Assembly: GCA_937862935.1 (NCBI GenBank)
Contig: CALMEO010000081.1
Location: forward strand, 1-33,756
Origin: an uncultured bacterium
GTDB lineage: Bacteria > Patescibacteriota > Gracilibacteria > Absconditabacterales > Absconditicoccaceae
Direction: 5' to 3'
DNA: 33,756 nt
The first letter of the stretch is position 1. Each line of letters opens with the position of its first letter. The position numbers were made by a program, and so were the translations under genes. Positions 4,249 to 31,870 of this stretch are shown piece by piece. Below the pieces are notes generated by a model that saw only the letters and a list, made by a program, of their open reading frames with translations, searched no databases and had not been told where the DNA came from.

Positions 4249-5211
4249 ATGAAACTTTCTACTTTATTTCAACATTCTCGTCCTAGATTTTGGCATTATC
4301 TTTATGGTCCTATGATGATCTGGTGAGCATATTATTTTTCTTCTAATAGTGATGTATTTACTCAAACATGATGATCTATGTGGTTTTTGATTTTTGCGTT
4401 TATTTTCTTTTTTCTTTCTTTTGTAGTATATTTTACTTTCCCAGCAAATCTTTTTGTCTATTGAGTAAATGATTTTGCTGATTATGATACTGACAAATTC
4501 AATACTAAAAAACAATGATATGAAAAGGTTCTTCAAACCAGGAAATCTTTTCTTTTTATCGTCTTTGCTGTACAGATAGGGTATTGGCTACTGATGGCAT
4601 TGCTCTATTTTTTTGTGTTTCTTCTTTCTGCTAAAATATCACATTTTACTGAAATACTTTCTTATCTTTCAGATTTTAGTCTTATCTTTTTGAGAATTTT
4701 TGTCTTGGTCTTGTTGCCATTTTTGCTCTTATCTTGGCTCTATAGTTTTGAACCTATAAGATTTAAGAAAAGGATATTTCTCGATGGTATCAGTAATGTC
4801 TTGTATATTATTACCCCTACAATTCTTATTTGATTGATGCAATGATATACATCATTTCAAGATATTTCTCCTCTTTTTTGGATGTGATTTGCGGCGGCAT
4901 GGCTTTGGTGTATAGCAATGCATTGTTTTTCTGCTATCCCTGATATCGCTTCTGATGCTAAAGCTGGGCTCAAAACAACTGCAATATTTCTATGAAAACA
5001 ATGATCTTTGCTGTATTGTATTGCTCTTTATGCTCTTGCATGAATCTTAGCAGCTCAGGTTATAGGTCCTGTATGATATGTCTTGTGACTTATCTACTGC
5101 GTTATGGTATTTTTATGATTTTATTATGATCTGTTTAAAATATATAAACGATTTCCTTATATCAATTTTTTTATAGGTTGATTTCTGTGTTTTCGGATAT
5201 ATTTTATGTAA
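4249..5211 (+). CDS. UbiA-family prenyltransferase, candidate lycopene elongase of the carotenoid cluster
   Basis: Integral membrane prenyltransferase of 320 aa. The first Asp-rich motif reads NDFADYDTD (N74, D75, D78, D80, D82), and a second conserved motif reads DIASDAKAGLKTTA (D232, D236); these bind the Mg-diphosphate of the prenyl donor. The remainder is hydrophobic segments with few charges. It sits 30 bp upstream of crtB and is followed by crtI, all on one strand. UbiA members next to crtB/crtI in actinobacteria and haloarchaea add C5 units to lycopene to make C50 carotenoids, so lycopene elongase is the inferred role; a quinone or other polyprenyl acceptor cannot be excluded. Several glycines, as in IWGAYY and QTGGSM, are TGA. 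Start at the ATG that opens the frame; no strong ribosome site is seen. Confidence 0.8.
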
Positions 5212-5241
5212 TATTTTACATTTATCGTTAAATTGTATGTT

Positions 5242-6228
5242 ATGATAAGGTACGTTTTTCGTATGTTTCGTTATGGTTTCAGCTATTTTATAGCTACGAT
5301 TTTTTTCCCCAAAGACATCCGTCAGGCCGTTTTTACCTTGTATTCTTTTGTGAGAGTACCTGATAATATTGTTGATGTTGTTGATGGTTGATTTGATATA
5401 AAATCAACTACTATATATTGCGAAAATAAAGAATGCTGATTTGCAGATACTAAGAATATCTGTACACAAAGGTGTAGAAAAATGCTTCTTACTCATTATC
5501 TCTCTGCCTATAAACAATTGGGGGAATATTATAAAAAATGGAATCATGCGTTTCACAATAAAGATAGAGAAGATAGTCAATTTGGTGAATATGTTAGATT
5601 ATTTGAAGCGTATGCTATTCCTTATGAGTATTCTACATCATTTTTTCAAAGTATGATCAGTGATTGTATCGTAAATAGATATCAAACCTATGCGGAAGTA
5701 GAAAAATATATGTATGGTTCTGCATCTGTTATTTGACTTATGATGTGTTCTCTTATGTGAGTAGATAATAATCGTGCATTGAAGTATGCTCGTATATTAT
5801 GAGATGCTATGCAATTTACCAATTTTTTGAGAGATATTCACGAGGATATTGTTTATTTGGATCGTATTTATCTTCCTGCTCAAGACTTGAAAAAATATTG
5901 ATTGGATCATGAAGATATTGTTGCTTTTTCTGATGATTTTGCTCGTAGAGATCTCAAAAAATGGTCTGCTTTTCAATCGTACATGAAAGCACAGATACTG
6001 TTTTGTCGTACTTTGTATAGACAAGCAATGAAATGATATCCTTATCTGTCTTTGGAAGCGAGAAAAGCGGTATCACTTTCTTCTTTGTTGTATCAAGAAA
6101 TATTGGCTAAGATAGAAAAAAACGATTACGATGTTTTTTCTTTGAGTGCAAAAACTAGCTTTTGGGATAAATTGGTGGTGTGGTGGAGATGGAAAAGAAC
6201 TGTTTCTGTATCGCTTATTAAAATGTAA
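5242..6228 (+). CDS. crtB: Phytoene/squalene synthase family protein (phytoene synthase)
   Basis: Head-to-head condensation of two GGPP to phytoene, the first committed step of carotenoid synthesis; membrane-associated. 328 aa. The family blocks are visible in order: FFPKDIRQAVFTLYSFVRVPD, the first Asp motif DNIVD (D41, D45), GSASVIGLMM, and the second motif MQFTNFLRDIHED (D198, D202), followed by DRIYLP. Squalene synthase shares this fold, but the neighbouring desaturase crtI argues for phytoene. The ATG at 5242 is chosen; an alternative ATG lies 21 bases further in. Glycines such as in SVIGLMM and ILGDAM are TGA. It is the middle gene of a tightly spaced cluster: 30 bp after the UbiA gene and 44 bp before crtI. 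Confidence 0.92.
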
Positions 6229-6272
6229 CTACTACTCACTTCTCTGTCTTTTTTATCTGTATTTTCGTTCAT

Positions 6273-7778
6273 ATGAAAAAAACAATCACTATAGTATGAT
6301 GAGGAATATGATGATTAGCGACTGCTATATTGCTTGCTAAACAGTGACATAGCGTATCTGTCTATGAAAAAAATGAATGCCTATGAGGAAGAGCAAGTAT
6401 TTTTTCAGAAAAATGATATACCTTTGATATGTGACCAAGTCGATATTTGATGCCAGATTTGTTTGAAGAATTTTTTGCTTCTATTGGGGAAAATATTACT
6501 GATCGATTGACCTTGGAAAAATTGAGTCCTAGTTATAAAGTATTTTATCCCAAGCAGTTTGGGTCAGCATTGTCTAGTGAATCATTATCTTCTATGAATG
6601 TCTATGCTGATATAGATCGTATGGCTGGTCAATTTGAGTCTCTGGAAGTGTGATCTGGTCAGAGATTCAAAAAATTTCTTAAAAATTCTTGAAGACAGTA
6701 TACGATAGGTATGGAATTTGCCAAGAGAAATTATGACTCTCTTTTTGATTTTTTTAGACTGGATATTGCTCGAAAATGATTACAGCTTAATATCTTTACT
6801 ACTATAGACAAGTATGTTGCTAGATTTTTTACAACAAGAATCCTTCAAAAGATTATGCAGTATACTACCGTTTTTTTGGGTACTCCACCTAGCCAGACTC
6901 CAGCTTTATATAATATTATGTCCTATGTTGATTTTGCTATGGGTGTTTGGTATCCTAAAGGTTGATTGCATAGTATAGTACAGGTGCTCAGAGATATAGG
7001 ATTGAAATATGGAGTCAAATATTATCTTGATAGTGAAGTTACTCAAGTTGTAATCCTGGATAATACAGTTTCTGAACTTGTATTGTCTGATTGACGTGTT
7101 GTTGCTTCTGATTTGTTCGTTATCAATGCTGATCAGGCATGGTTTGAAACTACACTTTTACCAGCATCGTTTCAGACATATTCTCAATCATTTCGAGATA
7201 AAAAAATATTTGCACCTTCATGATTTATTATTTATGCTGGTATAGATAAGAAACTCCCCAATTTTGAACATCATAATCTCTATTTCAATGATGATTGGAA
7301 TAAGAGTTTTGGTGATATCTTTGACCGTAAATTATTGCCTGAAGATCCTTCGATATATGTTTCTATGATATCCAAGACTGATCTGTGATCTGCTCCAGCA
7401 TGAAAAGAGAATCTTTTTGTTTTGGTTCCTATTCCCAACGGAATAATCATATCTGATGAACAGAAATCTACGTATCGTGATAAAATTTGGACTATTATAG
7501 GAAATATGGCAGGAGAAAAAATTGTTTCGCATATAGAATATGAAAGAATGTTTGATGTCTCTGACTTCAAAGAGAGATATAATGCTTGGAATGGTACTGC
7601 TTTGTGATTGGCACATACCATGCTGCAGACAGCATCATTTCGTCCCAATAATTATAGTAAAAAGCTACATAATCTATTCTATGTGTGACACAACACTAAT
7701 CCTGGTATTGGTGTCCCTATGGTTATTATAAGTGCTCGTCTGGTGGTAGAGAGGATGCAAAAAAGATGAGTCCTTTAG
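6273..7778 (+). CDS. crtI: Phytoene desaturase (CrtI type)
   Basis: FAD-dependent desaturase/isomerase that converts phytoene to lycopene or related products. 501 aa, normal for CrtI. The N-terminal Rossmann fingerprint reads ITIVGGGIGGLATAILLAKQGH, with Gly9, Gly10, Gly13 and Gly14 encoded by TGA and only Gly11 by GGA; this one site settles the genetic code. GGRASIF and the FDMGPSRYL block follow. The C-terminus has the diagnostic GLAHTMLQTASFRP and the FAD-closing HNTNPGIGVPMVIISA. The gene ends at TAG, 130 bp before the end of a convergent minus-strand gene. Product specificity (number of desaturations) cannot be read from sequence. No cyclase follows, so an acyclic product is likely. Confidence 0.94.
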
Positions 7779-23079: not shown

Positions 23080-24480
23080 TTATTTATACACAATATATTC
23101 TTCTCATTTTATTCAAGTTCCCAATACTATATTGCCCTCAAATCATAGTACGCGTATAAGATAATCTGTATAATCTATGTAGTTTTGTGGTAATTGTGAT
23201 TTTTCTTTTGTTCCTTTAATGTTTTCACGTAAATCAAAAATTTGACTATATTCTACTTGTATATTTTCATATTCGTTTCCATAGGGTAATGAATCTATAT
23301 ATATTTTTCAACTTTCTGTATTAACATATTTTTCTCCTATTTTTGCTTCATGTCAAAGAGCATCTAAAAGATCATACTTCGTTATAAAAAGTATATCTGC
23401 TTTATTGGTTTTAAGCGTTTTTTTGAGCTCTACTATATCATAATATCAAACATCTCTTGTTCTTCAGCTTGTTGCTCATACTTCATCTCAACAATATCCT
23501 CTGTATTGGTCAGCTTGTTCTTTTTCAAGTTTTGTAGGAAAATATCATCATCAAACTTTTGATTTTATTGCTTTTGTAACCATTATGTGAGTATGAATTT
23601 CTGGTAAATTTAATCAGCTAGATACTCAATTTGAGGTTGTATCTGAACTTGTACAATATGGATAGTTTCATCAATCTATCGCAAGTCATGAAGATTGAGA
23701 ATGTTCTATCAAAATTTTATCTCATGTATGAGCTGCTTCATTTAACATCATATTACCTTGATCTATCTGTATATATCAATCATCAATCATTTTTTGAAGT
23801 AATTCTTTTTCTTCTTTCACTTCGTTCATTATTTCTTCCAGATCCAATCATGTAAATAAGGATGAATTTACTTTCATAAATTCGTTTAATTCATCAGGAT
23901 TTGAATTGGATAGTATATTAAAATTTGGTCATGTTCTTAGTGCTTTGAGTGCGTAAGCGGGTCATATTCATTTTTTTGTTGTTCATACTTTTTTTGATTT
24001 TAATCACTCTATTATTCCATCTAATTTTCTTTGTAAATTATTGAAAATTATTTGTGCTCATCCTGCTACAAAAGTTCTTCATTTCATAGTATATCATTTT
24101 GATTCTAATAATTTTATTTCTTCGTATATTCATTTTATATTTACGACTCTTCATTGTCCTATATATATTTTTGCTTTTTCGTTTACTGCTCAACCAGGTA
24201 ATTCATGAAGTGCGACTTTCTCTCAATTTTTACAAACAGCTTGATGTCCTGCGTTTCATCATCATGTAGATACTGCGACTCGGTCATTGTCTTTAAATTG
24301 TGATGTTACTTTACCTTTTCATTCATCTCATTGTTGTCATCCATATATCACAGTAACGTTTCCTCTTTCCCAAACCTTATTTTCAAAATTTTCATTTGTA
24401 AGATTTAGGTTTGCTTGCGTTTTATTATACTTTGCTTGTTCATTTTTTTGCGATAGAATCTCTTTCATTTTTTCTCTCAT
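23080..24480 (-). CDS. purA: Adenylosuccinate synthetase
   Basis: GTP-dependent condensation of IMP with aspartate, the first step from IMP to AMP. 466 aa, about 35 more than usual. Seen: P-loop-like YGGQQGDEGKGK (residues ~47-57), STGGGNAGHQAV with the catalytic His, GTTKKGIGPAY, EHSQSSGLAIDGGNYPYCTSSDTT, and C-terminal VDEL-type guanine region that is less clear. Many glycines are TGA; GDEGKGK itself has two. The extra length is an N-terminal extension of about 40 residues (MREKMKEILSQKNEQ onward), Lys/Asn/Gln-rich. ATG at 24480 is chosen, as no later ATG lies before the conserved core. Divergent from guaB, so the two enzymes that draw on IMP share a control region. Confidence 0.94.
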
Positions 24481-24658
24481 ATAATAAAAAAACTCCAATA
24501 TAGGTATTTGTTTTTTGTTCAAATATTTTTTTTGTTGATTTGTTATAGTTTTTTATATGTAATATGTCAAATGTTTTTTTAATATAAATTATTATTGTAA
24601 AACCGAGGTAAAATGATATTATGGATCAGATATTCTTTATTTTATTAGAAATATTTCT
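24481..24658. promoter_or_regulatory. Divergent spacer purA/guaB
   Basis: A 178-bp AT-rich spacer holding both promoters of the IMP branch-point genes. No riboswitch-like fold was seen and no promoter could be picked with confidence. Confidence 0.35.
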
Positions 24659-25741
24659 ATGAAATTTAATAATCCACTCTATGAAAATGAAGAGCTTGCT
24701 TATGAAGATGTTTTTCTTTTTCAAAATTATTTTGATGGAAATTCTAGATTGGAAATGGATGTAGATCCGACAATTCCTCTTGCAACACATATTCCTATTA
24801 TAACTGCAAATATGAATGCTGTCAGTGGGAAAAGAATGGCAGAAACTATAGCACGTTATGGTTGACTTTCTGTCTTACCTCAAGATATGGATATAGAAAC
24901 ACTTACTAGAATTATCTCGTCTATCAAAGCTGCTGATGTGCAATATGATACTCCTATTACCGTGAAAGCCCATAATACCATTAGAGATGCGTTGTGAATT
25001 ATTCACAAAAGAGCCCATAATTCTGTGATACTTATTGATGATGAAGGAAAGGCAATCAATATTTTTAAACCACAAGATCTTGAAAATTTGGATCAATTTA
25101 CCTTGTTGGGGAATATTTCTAAGCCTGGTATGATTACGTGAAAAATCTGAATCTCTGATGAAGATGCATTTACCTTGATGGATGAAAAAGGCATATCATC
25201 TCTCCCAATTATTGATGATCAGTGAATCCTTAAATGAATCCTTACCAAAAAAAATACACTAAGGAATACTTTGTATGCACCATCACTTGATCAACATGGA
25301 AAACTTAATGTAGCCGTTGCTGTGGGAATACATAATTTTGATGAAAAAGTTGCTATTTTGTATGATTTGGGTATTAGACTTTTTGTCTTGGATACTGCTC
25401 ATGGATATCAAAAATCTATGATAGAAAATATAAAAAACATAAGATCGATGTATGGAAATACTATTATTGTGGTTGCTGGTAATGTTATTACCGAAGAAGC
25501 AACACGTGCGCTACTTCTGGCCTGAGCTGATGGTGTAAAGGTTGGTATATGACCATGAGCTATGTGTACCACGCGTATGAAAACATGAGTTGGTAGACCA
25601 CAGTTTACTGCAGTATACAAATGTGCTCAAGAAGCCAAAAAACATGGATGATTTGTCTGGGCTGACGGATGAATCAAAACTCCGAGAGATTTTATCCTAG
25701 CTCTTGCTGCATGAGCAAATCATGTCATGTGGTGAACCTAA
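24659..25741 (+). CDS. guaB: IMP dehydrogenase GuaB, cut short by an in-frame TAA
   Basis: NAD-dependent oxidation of IMP to XMP, first step toward GMP. The frame gives 360 residues up to TAA at 25739-25741. Seen: N-terminal barrel start (ANMNAVSGKRMAETIA), two CBS domains around residues 95-200 (TVKAHNTIRDALG; ISSLPIIDDQG), LDTAHGYQ, the catalytic loop GIGPGAMCTTR with Cys303, and DGGIKTPRDFILALAAGANHVM. The TAA falls where the family has a hydrophobic residue in MxGs(l)fAGTxE. The same frame then continues for 119 codons of clear GuaB sequence (next entry). A single T-to-A change from Leu TTA would explain it. Sequencing error, a recent nonsense mutation or stop readthrough are all possible. 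Glycines are often TGA. Confidence 0.88.
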
Positions 25742-26101
25742 TGGGCATGAACCTTTGAATCGGTAGGTGATGTAAAATATGATGAAGAATGATTGATGTA
25801 TAAGGAAAACTATGGCATGGCTTCCAAAAAGGCTGTTTGTGATAGAAGTCAAAAATTAAGTAAATTTGAGCAAGCACAAAAACAGATGTTTCGTGAGGGA
25901 ATATCTAGCTCAAGAATATATATCAAACCATGAATGGAATCCGTTGGTGATATTGTCGATGAATGTATGACAGGACTTCGTAGTAGTATGACTTATGTCG
26001 GTGCTAAAAACTTAGAAGAATTTTGTGAGAAAGCGATTGTATGAGTACAAACCAGTGCTGGTTTTGTGGAAGGGACTCCTCATGGAAAAATTAGAAAATA
26101 A
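25742..26101 (+). pseudogene. guaB: C-terminal part of guaB beyond the in-frame TAA
   Basis: In the same frame as the preceding entry and without any further interruption: WAGTFESVGDVKYDEEG, YKENYGMASKKAV, the flap region, KPGMESVGDIVDECMTGLRSS (C-terminal IMP/K+ site) and MTYVGAKNLEEF. Together the two parts make 480 residues plus the stop-coded position, the normal IMPDH length. The flap Arg/active-site residues and C-terminal substrate contacts lie here, so the truncated upstream product should be inactive. The sequence shows no decay, which argues for a very recent event or an error. Confidence 0.85.
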
Positions 26102-29686: not shown

Positions 29687-31870
29687 TTATACTTGCAATG
29701 CTTTGATAACTTCTGGTACGAATTCATCTAGTGGGATGGCGAGATATTTTTCACAATTGAGAACTTCTTCTCTATCAACTCCTGCAGCAAATTTTTTATC
29801 TTTCAATTTTTTTTTGACGGAGCTATATTCCATTCACTCCAATCCTGTAGGTCTCATCAATCCTACCGCATAAATAAATCCTGTCAATTCGTCAACTGAG
29901 ATCAGATACTTTCTCAATAAAGAGTTTACTGCGACTGAGGTTTTGCTTGTATAATGTGATTTGATGTCATCTACCAGACATTGAGGTAGATTAATTTCTG
30001 CTACGATTTTTTCAAATTCTTCTCATAGATGTTTACTTGGGTCTTTACCAATATAATCTCGATCAATATCATGGAGTAGTCATGCAATATATCGAAGTTC
30101 CTCATTTTGTTTTAGTTTTTTTGCAAAATGTTTCATAACTGTCGCTACATCTATGCAATGTCTGTAGGTATCTTTGATATATTTTTTTGCTAGATTTTCT
30201 ACGTCTTCACGTGCAGGTAATGTACCATACAGCGTTGCGATATCTACTTCACTGGTGTCTTCTAGCTCTACTTTTTTTTCTGCTTTCATGAGTGGAAACA
30301 TCACGACATCTCTCAAGTTATCTTGTTCTGTTAAAATTGCCAATAATCTTTCTAATCCCATACCAAAACCTGATTGGGGTGGCATTCCATATTCCATAGC
30401 GGTCACAAAATCATCATCACTTGCTGTTGCTTCTTCATCACCTGCTTCTGCGGCTTTTGCTTGTTTATCAAAATTTTCTTGTTGTAAAATCGGGTCAACT
30501 AATTCAGAATATGCTTTACAGATTTCTCGACCATTGACCAATAACTGAAACTGTTCGACAATATTTGTATCTTTGTCTGATATCCTTGCTAATGGCTGCA
30601 TGATGACAGGATAGTTATAGATGAATGCTGGTCCTATAATTTTTGGTCTCAATACTTTCTTGTAGAGATAATCAATCAAAGTTGTTGTTCCCATTTTTTC
30701 CATTTTTTCAAATTCTATTCCTTTGCTTTTGATTTCATTTCTCAAGCTATCTGCATCATCCATTCCATATTTTGTAATGTCTATTCCACTTGCTTCTTGT
30801 ATGCCTTTTGTAAAATCTATTCTCTTTCGTGGTGTAGTAAAATCCACTTCTTGACTATTTTCGTCTTTGTCTTTGATGTTCAATTTTTTGGATAATCCCA
30901 AACTCTCAAAAAGATAATCAAACATTTTTTCTGTAAATGTCATATTATCTTCATAATTTCGATATACTGCATAATGTTCTACTTGTGTAAACTCTTGGAG
31001 ATGACTTGGATCAGATCCTTCGTTTCTGAAATCTTGTCCTATTTCGAATACTTTTTCAAATCTTCCTACCGTTGCTTTTTTGAGTCCTGTTTCAAATGCA
31101 ATTCTCAAGAATACGTCAGTATCATAATCGTTATGATGCGTTATAAATGGTCTTGCAGCTGCTCCAGAAGCTGAATTTCCTAATATATTGGTCTGTATTT
31201 CTGTAAATCATTCTTTGGTGTAAAACTCTCTGAGTGACTGATACATCTTTGATTTTAACAAAAATCTTTTGTAGGTTTCAGGATTCATAGTAAGATCCAA
31301 ATATCTTTTTCTATAGAGTTCTTCTTGGTCTTGGAGTCCATGAAATTTTTCTGGTAATGGTCTTATACTCTTGGATAAAAATTTGAATGCTGATACAAAT
31401 ATTGTAAGTTCTCCTTTATGTGTTTTAAATATTTCTCACTCTACCCCTATAAAATCTCCCATATCTACCATTTTTTCCATAAATTTGTAGGCAGACATTC
31501 CTTCTTCACTTCAATCCTTCAAATTTGTAATTGATCATTCGTTATCTGTTATTATTTTGCAGTTGTCTCTATGAAACATAAGCTGGATCTCTGCACTACT
31601 GTCCAATAATTTTGCAAATGCGAGCTTTCCATGAGAACGGTACAGCATTACTCTTCCTGCAGTTTTTACCTGTATCTCAGGATTGGGAATGATGTCTATG
31701 ATATCACGATGTTCTTTTGTTTCGTATGTTTGTATGATATCTCAGATCAGATTTTTTTTGTCGAAAGATTGTGCATAGGGAATGATTCCTATGTTTTTCA
31801 TTTTCTTGACCTTATTGATACGAACATCACGTTCGTTTTGATGTTCTTCGTGTGTTGTTGTTTCTGTCAT
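29687..31870 (-). CDS. lysS: Lysyl-tRNA synthetase (class II) fused to an HD-domain phosphohydrolase
   Basis: Charges tRNA-Lys with lysine. 727 aa, against about 500 for ordinary LysRS. Residues ~1-150 are the anticodon-binding OB region, and the class II core follows: LQDQEELYRKRYLDL, SASGAAARPFITHHND, motif 2 FEIGQDFRNEG, AYSELVDP, and motif 3 GFGMGLERLLAIL. After about residue 555 the chain runs without a break into an HD domain: RHCIDVATVMKHFAKKL (His571) then YIAGLLHDIDRDY (His600, Asp601), and further GFIYAVGLMRPTGLEG and KFAAGVDRE to the end. HD domains hydrolyse phosphate esters, often of nucleotides. The link is a TGA-Gly (AGLLHD), so a standard-code reading would hide the fusion. 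Stop is TAA. Confidence 0.94.

Follow-up and report, generated by a model that had tools for sequence, protein, structure and literature searches.

A lysyl-tRNA synthetase fused in frame to a predicted HD hydrolase domain in an Absconditicoccaceae genome, and the linkage of related HD genes with lysS in Patescibacteria

The window analysed here, a stretch of 33,756 nucleotides from an uncultured Absconditicoccaceae bacterium (contig CALMEO010000081.1), carries on its minus strand, from position 31870 down to 29687, a gene in which a lysyl-tRNA synthetase (LysRS) continues in a single 727-residue frame into an HD domain under NCBI genetic code 25, where TGA encodes glycine. The N-terminal part is a complete, normal class II LysRS, for which charging of tRNA-Lys is predicted, and the HD domain is predicted to be a catalytically intact metal hydrolase of the HD superfamily. 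The window exemplifies a phylum-wide pattern in which HD domains of this family are fused to LysRS or encoded beside it. The parts are each of a known kind. Their combination and the phylum-wide link are apparently new, since a full-text search of open-licence PubMed Central papers found no description of a LysRS-HD fusion or of a LysRS-linked HD gene; the architecture itself is surely visible in protein databases.

The fused gene and its two domains

Profile searches with the 727-residue protein placed LysRS at residues 11-531, followed by the HD domain, and so bore out the in-frame fusion reported in a preliminary description of this DNA, which did not name the strand. The LysRS part matched TIGR00499 with 458.9 bits (cut-off 427.6) and PRK00484.1 with 517.7 bits (cut-off 468). 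With the bacterial class II LysRS described by these two models it has in common the OB-fold, a complete catalytic core and the motif residues, and it differs from them by the additional C-terminal HD domain of about 180 residues, both curated models stopping at residue 530-531. Arg282-Asn283-Glu284, His290 and Arg508 show no variation across 37 aligned fused sequences, among them that of the window; we take Arg282, Asn283, Glu284 and Arg508 to be the catalytic residues of class II motifs 2 and 3. LysX, a lysylphosphatidylglycerol synthetase, is likewise a LysRS joined to a second domain. In LysX, however, the partner domain is N-terminal and is itself a membrane lipid enzyme, and the LysX model PRK02983 scored 396.3 here, far under its cut-off of 742. 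The features of the gene are collected in Table 1.

Table 1. Features of the LysRS-HD gene, in window coordinates; counts refer to 220 aligned HD relatives
Feature	Position	Strand	Remarks
LysRS-HD fusion gene	29687..31870	-	727 aa, code 25, 8 TGA = Gly, ATG start, TAA stop (included)
OB-fold anticodon-binding domain, residues 68-163	31382..31669	-	PF01336
Class II LysRS catalytic core, residues 182-531	30278..31327	-	Pfam (182-528) and curated models
Linker, residues 532-550	30221..30277	-	low model confidence at 535-540, no TGA
HD domain, residues 545-727	29690..30238	-	PF01966 / TIGR00277
His571, first metal ligand	30158..30160	-	217/220 relatives
His600-Asp601 doublet	30068..30073	-	218/220 relatives
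His614	30029..30031	-	214/220 relatives
His639	29954..29956	-	220/220 relatives
Asp660	29891..29893	-	Asp in 177, Glu in 43 of 220 relatives
Family-specific basic loop, residues 684-700	29771..29821	-	Phe694 and Arg700 in 219/220 relatives

The C-terminal part matched PF01966 at residues 568-630 (33.2 bits, cut-off 22) and the HDIG model TIGR00277 (33.4 bits, cut-off 27.6). His571 and the His600-Asp601 doublet, singled out in the preliminary description, were correctly located, and the roughly 130 residues said to follow the motif are 126 counted after Asp601. The H..HD..H..H..D metal site is complete, and an enzymatic role is reasonable because it is intact. Among the 32 fused copies of the phylum-wide sample described below, His571, His600, Asp601 and His639 are present in all, His614 in 31, and position 660 is Asp in 24. 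Conservation of the histidines and Asp601 is equally high in fused and in free copies, so the HD domain appears to be under selection as an enzyme. Asp603, two residues after the Asp of the doublet, is invariant and, together with Phe694, Arg700 and the basic loop, marks the family. Stand-alone HD/HDIG hydrolases of this family, presumably COG2316, are widespread in bacteria, with one archaeon seen, and have in common with the window the metal site, the Asp two past the doublet's Asp, the basic loop and the Phe-Ala...Arg signature. One such stand-alone protein (L096) matched the tRNA methyltransferase model PRK12703 with an E-value of 1.4e-8, far under the cut-off, and a literature search on this model was without result.

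The TGA codons of the gene stand at residues 43, 112, 120, 145, 221, 597, 616 and 679. A TGA-encoded glycine had been described at the LysRS/HD junction, with two separate ORFs expected under the standard code. There is no TGA among residues 222-596, and the codon closest to the junction is that of Gly597, inside the HD domain and three codons ahead of His600; the standard code would indeed break the frame, at residue 597 rather than at the junction. Two observations support reading TGA597 as glycine: among ten fused relatives from the family and class, seven have GGN at this codon and three have TGA, and the aligned position is glycine in 214 of 220 HD sequences.

Nine genomes of the genus were searched, that of the window included, and the fusion was found in five (G000, G379, G382, G383 and G384), the last four being separate assemblies with 77-84% identity. 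Three others (G381, G385 and G386) encode a LysRS without HD domain, and the 1.5 kb behind it gave no match to the HD profile; the remaining one (G380, an incomplete bin) gave no good LysRS match. Further fusions were found in the family, designated f1 (G397, G400, G403, G409 and G410; ten fused genomes in f1, window's included), in another family of the class (G417) and in relatives using table 11, where the frame contains no internal TGA. The fusion recurs in genus, family and class, without being universal, and it is not the case that all relatives carry the two domains as separate genes. The genome of the window is in 141 contigs with an estimated contamination of 4.22%, from which an assembly or contamination artefact might be suspected. 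We rejected this explanation as far as sequence allows and regard its probability as negligible: the same fusion is present in four other species of the genus, in separate assemblies, and therefore is not an assembly join; it is also found in the ten f1 genomes and in table-11 relatives, and codon 597 varies between GGN and TGA among the fused relatives of the family and class.

Three other regions of the window were noted by eye. An adenylosuccinate synthetase-like ORF (23080-24522, minus strand, 480 aa) contains 38 TGA codons, against 8 in the 727-residue LysRS gene. An IMP dehydrogenase-like gene (24659-26101, plus strand) appears split under code 25 into the ORFs 24659-25741 and 25793-26101, as by a frameshift. 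Finally, three consecutive plus-strand genes at 4249-7778 resemble a prenyltransferase, a phytoene synthase and a phytoene desaturase, a possible carotenoid cluster.

Linkage of HD genes with lysS across the phylum

A tool-drawn sample of 379 Patescibacteria genomes was searched with the whole protein and with an HD alignment, which revealed fused frames of about 690-775 residues in many families. The HD matches listed with E-values below 1e-30 were counted, except that of G053, where a strong HD hit lies beside lysS by its coordinates and enters no count; this resulted in 140 HD genes from 137 genomes. Hits with E-values above 1e-30 were left out, many of them lying in frames of about 500 residues that are probably RNase Y. 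The 140 genes comprise 32 fused to a class II LysRS, 37 near a class II LysRS, 11 near a class I LysRS and 60 'alone', meaning that the sequence retrieved around the gene (at most 3 kb on either side, less at contig ends) contained no recognised LysRS. Of the 137 genomes, 79 show linkage; of the 65 family codes in which the HD gene occurs, 37 include a linked gene, and fusions were found in 17 family codes. At least two 'alone' genes (G105 and G167) adjoin a frame with a tail of the B3/4 family that is probably part of a LysRS truncated at the end of the stretch; linkage is therefore undercounted.

Among the linked genes that are not fused, 46 of 48 were scored as following lysS in the same orientation, and the remaining two are overlapping frames with doubtful starts; the 'down' score of G154 and G377 results from the chosen start codon, which gave frame overlaps of 96 and 63 bases. 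Gaps between lysS and the HD gene range from -96 to 2,009 bp and are at most 13 bp in 28 of the 48 cases. The association is specific at the upstream side: Pfam searches of the gene directly upstream, run for 107 HD genes that are encoded separately, yielded the class II D/K/N synthetase core 30 times and the class I Lys core 9 times, the next unrelated family reaching 5. Downstream, for 106 HD genes, the commonest Pfam family was the class II G/H/P/S/T core, found 24 times. Sequence comparison identified SerRS directly downstream in 22 of these 106 cases, 18 of them beside lysS-linked HD genes, in 12 family codes. The gene order lysS-HD-serS, seen at L230, L192 and 20 other loci, is thus common, which calls for caution on the linkage.

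We also examined 80 HD loci in named records, within about 4 kb. Twelve are linked to LysRS, namely 10 of the 14 Patescibacteria loci, 2 of the 3 without phylum name and none of the 63 from other phyla, where the family is encoded by a separate gene in contrast to the fusion described here. The two sets overlap, the HD sequences of L052, L053 and L118 being identical to ones in the 379-genome sample. Gene context at the 80 loci revealed no consistent HD partner in other phyla, the neighbour clusters reaching up to 12 loci and some being plainly spurious antisense frames. In Elusimicrobia (L094 and L065), HD genes were observed at a distance of 0.8-1.6 kb from a class II synthetase gene (467 aa) that precedes them on the same strand; that of L094 encodes an asparaginyl-tRNA synthetase (asnS, about 0.8 kb upstream). 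Since 60 of 140 HD genes are not near lysS and 0 of 63 are linked in other named phyla, the HD enzyme can work without LysRS.

On a tree of the HD domains the fused and separate states require at least 18 changes, from which we conclude that they have been exchanged repeatedly; the tree was built by a quick method, 74 of its 214 inner branches lack support, and such change counts are rough.

Exchange of LysRS class and recruitment of further domains

The folds of class I and class II LysRS are unrelated. Profile matches support the class I identity of two of the synthetases, TIGR00467, over its cut-off, for L118 and PF01921 for L198. A family designated f6 contains both situations: eight of its genomes carry the class II fusion, and in three others (G251, G267 and G276; loci L263, L262 and L265) a class I LysRS gene lies upstream of the HD gene, with gaps of 8, 156 and 69 bp, respectively. 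The HD copies of these three genomes fall in the same well-supported clade as the fused f6 copies. A class II LysRS was matched only weakly by the whole query in G267 (best E-value 1.1e-41) and G276 (5.2e-36), and with an E-value of 3.3e-98 in G251. From these matches the class II enzyme seems to have been replaced in G267 and G276, an apparent in-place synthetase swap, and G251 appears to have both LysRS classes. The HD partner staying while the synthetase class changes argues that its function belongs to lysyl-tRNA synthesis and not to the class II fold.

Other domains were also found by Pfam searches at the C-terminus of LysRS. B3/4, the editing domain of phenylalanyl-tRNA synthetase (PheRS), is attached to LysRS at L023, L191, L230 and L253 and to class I LysRS at L198. 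DUF2000, which presumably resembles peptidyl-tRNA hydrolase II, is attached at L175, L234, L253, L255 and L319 and lies inside the LysRS frame in 16 of the 33 genomes carrying it (with cases among L272-L291); its only PDB match was 2gax, with an E-value of 0.025. The domains occur in different orders: LysRS-DUF2000-HD (L175), LysRS-HD-DUF2000 (L255), LysRS-B3/4-HD (L191) and, in G280 (L253), LysRS-HD-B3/4-DUF2000, a protein of 1107 aa with a second, separate HD gene behind it. These arrangements suggest that repeated recruitment of different domains to the LysRS C-terminus is a common theme. A candidate new fusion at L107 was rejected, its N-terminal part being a beta-propeller fragment open at the contig end.

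The HD gene could also merely be a member of a lysS-HD-serS cluster, fused to lysS now and then by neutral loss of a stop codon, with no functional coupling. SerRS lying directly downstream in 22 of 106 cases would agree with this, as would the absence of the HD domain in sister species, and many of the fusions could be read-through of an adjacent pair. We nevertheless consider this explanation quite improbable: it accounts neither for the link to both LysRS classes and the fusions in 17 family codes, nor for the fused proteins in which other domains separate HD from LysRS or come after HD (L175, L191, L253 and L255), nor for the metal site being kept in fused copies.

Relation to GlyRS and YqeK and the possible function of the HD domain

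The model of the HD domain has a pLDDT of 96.3 and a pTM of 0.92; that of the full-length protein has a pTM of 0.70, with the low-confidence linker noted in Table 1, and does not fix how the two domains are oriented. In a fold comparison with VIA-align, the best 50 matches were headed by the HD domain of E. coli GlyRS (Z 11.9 and 11.4), followed by PgpH (11.0) and YqeK (2ogi, 10.0), these scores being tied within about 1-2 Z and all below 13, where chance matches between helical folds may occur. The best GlyRS match covers 156 residues at 3.8 A with 10% identity. Full-length RelA/SpoT enzymes were absent from these 50 best matches, which excludes nothing, and Foldseek found no match at E-values up to 0.001. 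Profile comparison using hhalign with 15 GlyRS beta sequences was colinear but weak (local E-value 0.0025, probability 11.8%), and against E. coli GlyRS beta alone the probability was 1.2%.

GlyRS beta resembles the fusion protein in having an HD domain attached to a synthetase and gave the highest, nearly tied, fold score; its sequence relation is weak. According to PMC9908026, the GlyRS HD domain clamps the tRNA acceptor stem, its cavity meeting U73 and C74, and the C-terminal half puts a loop into the acceptor stem. In contrast to the window and all 32 fused copies, in which the doublet is intact, the GlyRS beta domain has lost the catalytic doublet, replaced by Ser393-Lys394 (PMC8464048), and is used for tRNA binding. 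By analogy, the HD domain studied here could mainly bind tRNA or a regulatory nucleotide and tune aminoacylation, as the GlyRS beta domain does. Its top fold match and the loop placed in the acceptor stem by the GlyRS C-terminal half would fit such a role. Binding alone does not explain, however, why the linked domains keep the metal ligands that GlyRS beta has lost, and we hold this reading to be rather unlikely.

By sequence profile, the nearest solved relatives include the Ap4A hydrolase YqeK (8jja, E-value 2.1e-4 over 41 positions). YqeK, a symmetrical Ap4A hydrolase (TIGR00488), shares with the window the HD fold and the six-residue dinuclear signature H..HD..H..H..D described for it in PMC8177086. 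TIGR00488 (cut-off 70.15 bits) gave no match to the LysRS-HD protein among the best 25 of 28 model matches at E-values up to 1, and in the YqeK search of the 379 genomes the window gene was absent from the matches, a contig of the same genome (C66) reaching 19.3 bits. The lysine of YqeK that contacts ADP, Lys62, three residues after Asp59 of the doublet (PMC11857287), corresponds to Arg604 in the window and to Tyr, Trp or Phe in 201 of 220 relatives. With the curated cut-off missed and the substrate-contacting lysine replaced, membership of the YqeK family was rejected.

The HD domain might nonetheless hydrolyse dinucleoside polyphosphates (Ap4A, Ap3A or NpnN), removing a by-product of LysRS and so preventing its build-up or shaping an alarmone signal; Ap4A removal had been offered as a guess in the preliminary description. 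LysRS is a known Ap4A producer (PMC10148737), the YqeK hydrolases are close by profile and the six-residue signature is present. Moreover, canonical YqeK exceeds its cut-off in only 4 of the 379 Patescibacteria genomes, which leaves room for a substitute. Against this stand the position outside the YqeK family, the absent lysine, a genome with both a fused HD domain and a YqeK match (G022), and the extension of the linkage to class I LysRS, for which our literature search found no report of Ap4A synthesis. B3/4 and DUF2000 are attached to the same synthetase, and we know of no link of either to Ap4A. We see the dinucleotide role as a serious rival, though a less probable one than the reading below.

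We tentatively favour the reading that the HD domain works as a hydrolase, with the end of tRNA-Lys or the activated intermediate as its target. The links to class I LysRS, B3/4 and DUF2000, with the YqeK model match and lysine missing, point to tRNA or aminoacylation intermediates as the target, and the uptake by the LysRS C-terminus of B3/4, an editing domain of PheRS, is the reason for supposing quality control. To our knowledge, no HD enzyme is known to edit aminoacyl-tRNA. The chemistry on record for HD enzymes is mostly phosphate-ester or anhydride hydrolysis (PMC8177086), and candidate substrates in the vicinity of LysRS are Ap4A, lysyl-adenylate or a mis-adenylate, and the ends of tRNA. 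The fusion would be a two-enzyme protein, a class II LysRS that bears an HD hydrolase on a short, flexible C-terminal linker, and the HD domain would be devoted to assisting the synthesis of lysyl-tRNA(Lys). It would sit close to the acceptor end of the tRNA, like the HD domain of bacterial GlyRS, and its two-metal site may hydrolyse a phosphate-containing product or intermediate, such as a faulty tRNA 3' end, a wrong adenylate or a wrong aminoacyl-tRNA, the exact substrate being a guess; its activity would then amount to quality control. This hydrolase reading is favoured by the LysRS linkage and neighbour specificity, the class swap, the repeated exchange of fused and separate states, the kept metal site, the B3/4 and DUF2000 domains and the GlyRS fold match; it is opposed by the 60 of 140 HD genes away from lysS and the absence of linkage at the 63 loci of other phyla, by the three species of the genus without the domain, and by fold matches that are weak and nearly tied.

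A bolder version, which we think unlikely, is that LysRS of either class in Patescibacteria anchors a proofreading cassette, HD, B3/4 and DUF2000 being recruited again and again to its C-terminus, and that the active HD domain, placed like the dead one of GlyRS, destroys wrong products at the tRNA-Lys end. If so, these HD enzymes would be a new kind of tRNA-quality-control enzyme.

Few synthetases have been studied as much as LysRS. That many tiny symbiotic bacteria provide it with a putative metal hydrolase, as its tail or as an adjoining gene, hints at a partner activity so far overlooked in the making of lysine-tRNA. A widespread uncharacterised HD family thereby gains a testable pathway, and the enigmatic HD domain of bacterial GlyRS a putative active cousin. 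If this is true, a partner that accompanies LysRS across a phylum and is kept through replacement by class I LysRS would indicate an unknown step or hazard in the synthesis of lysine-tRNA.
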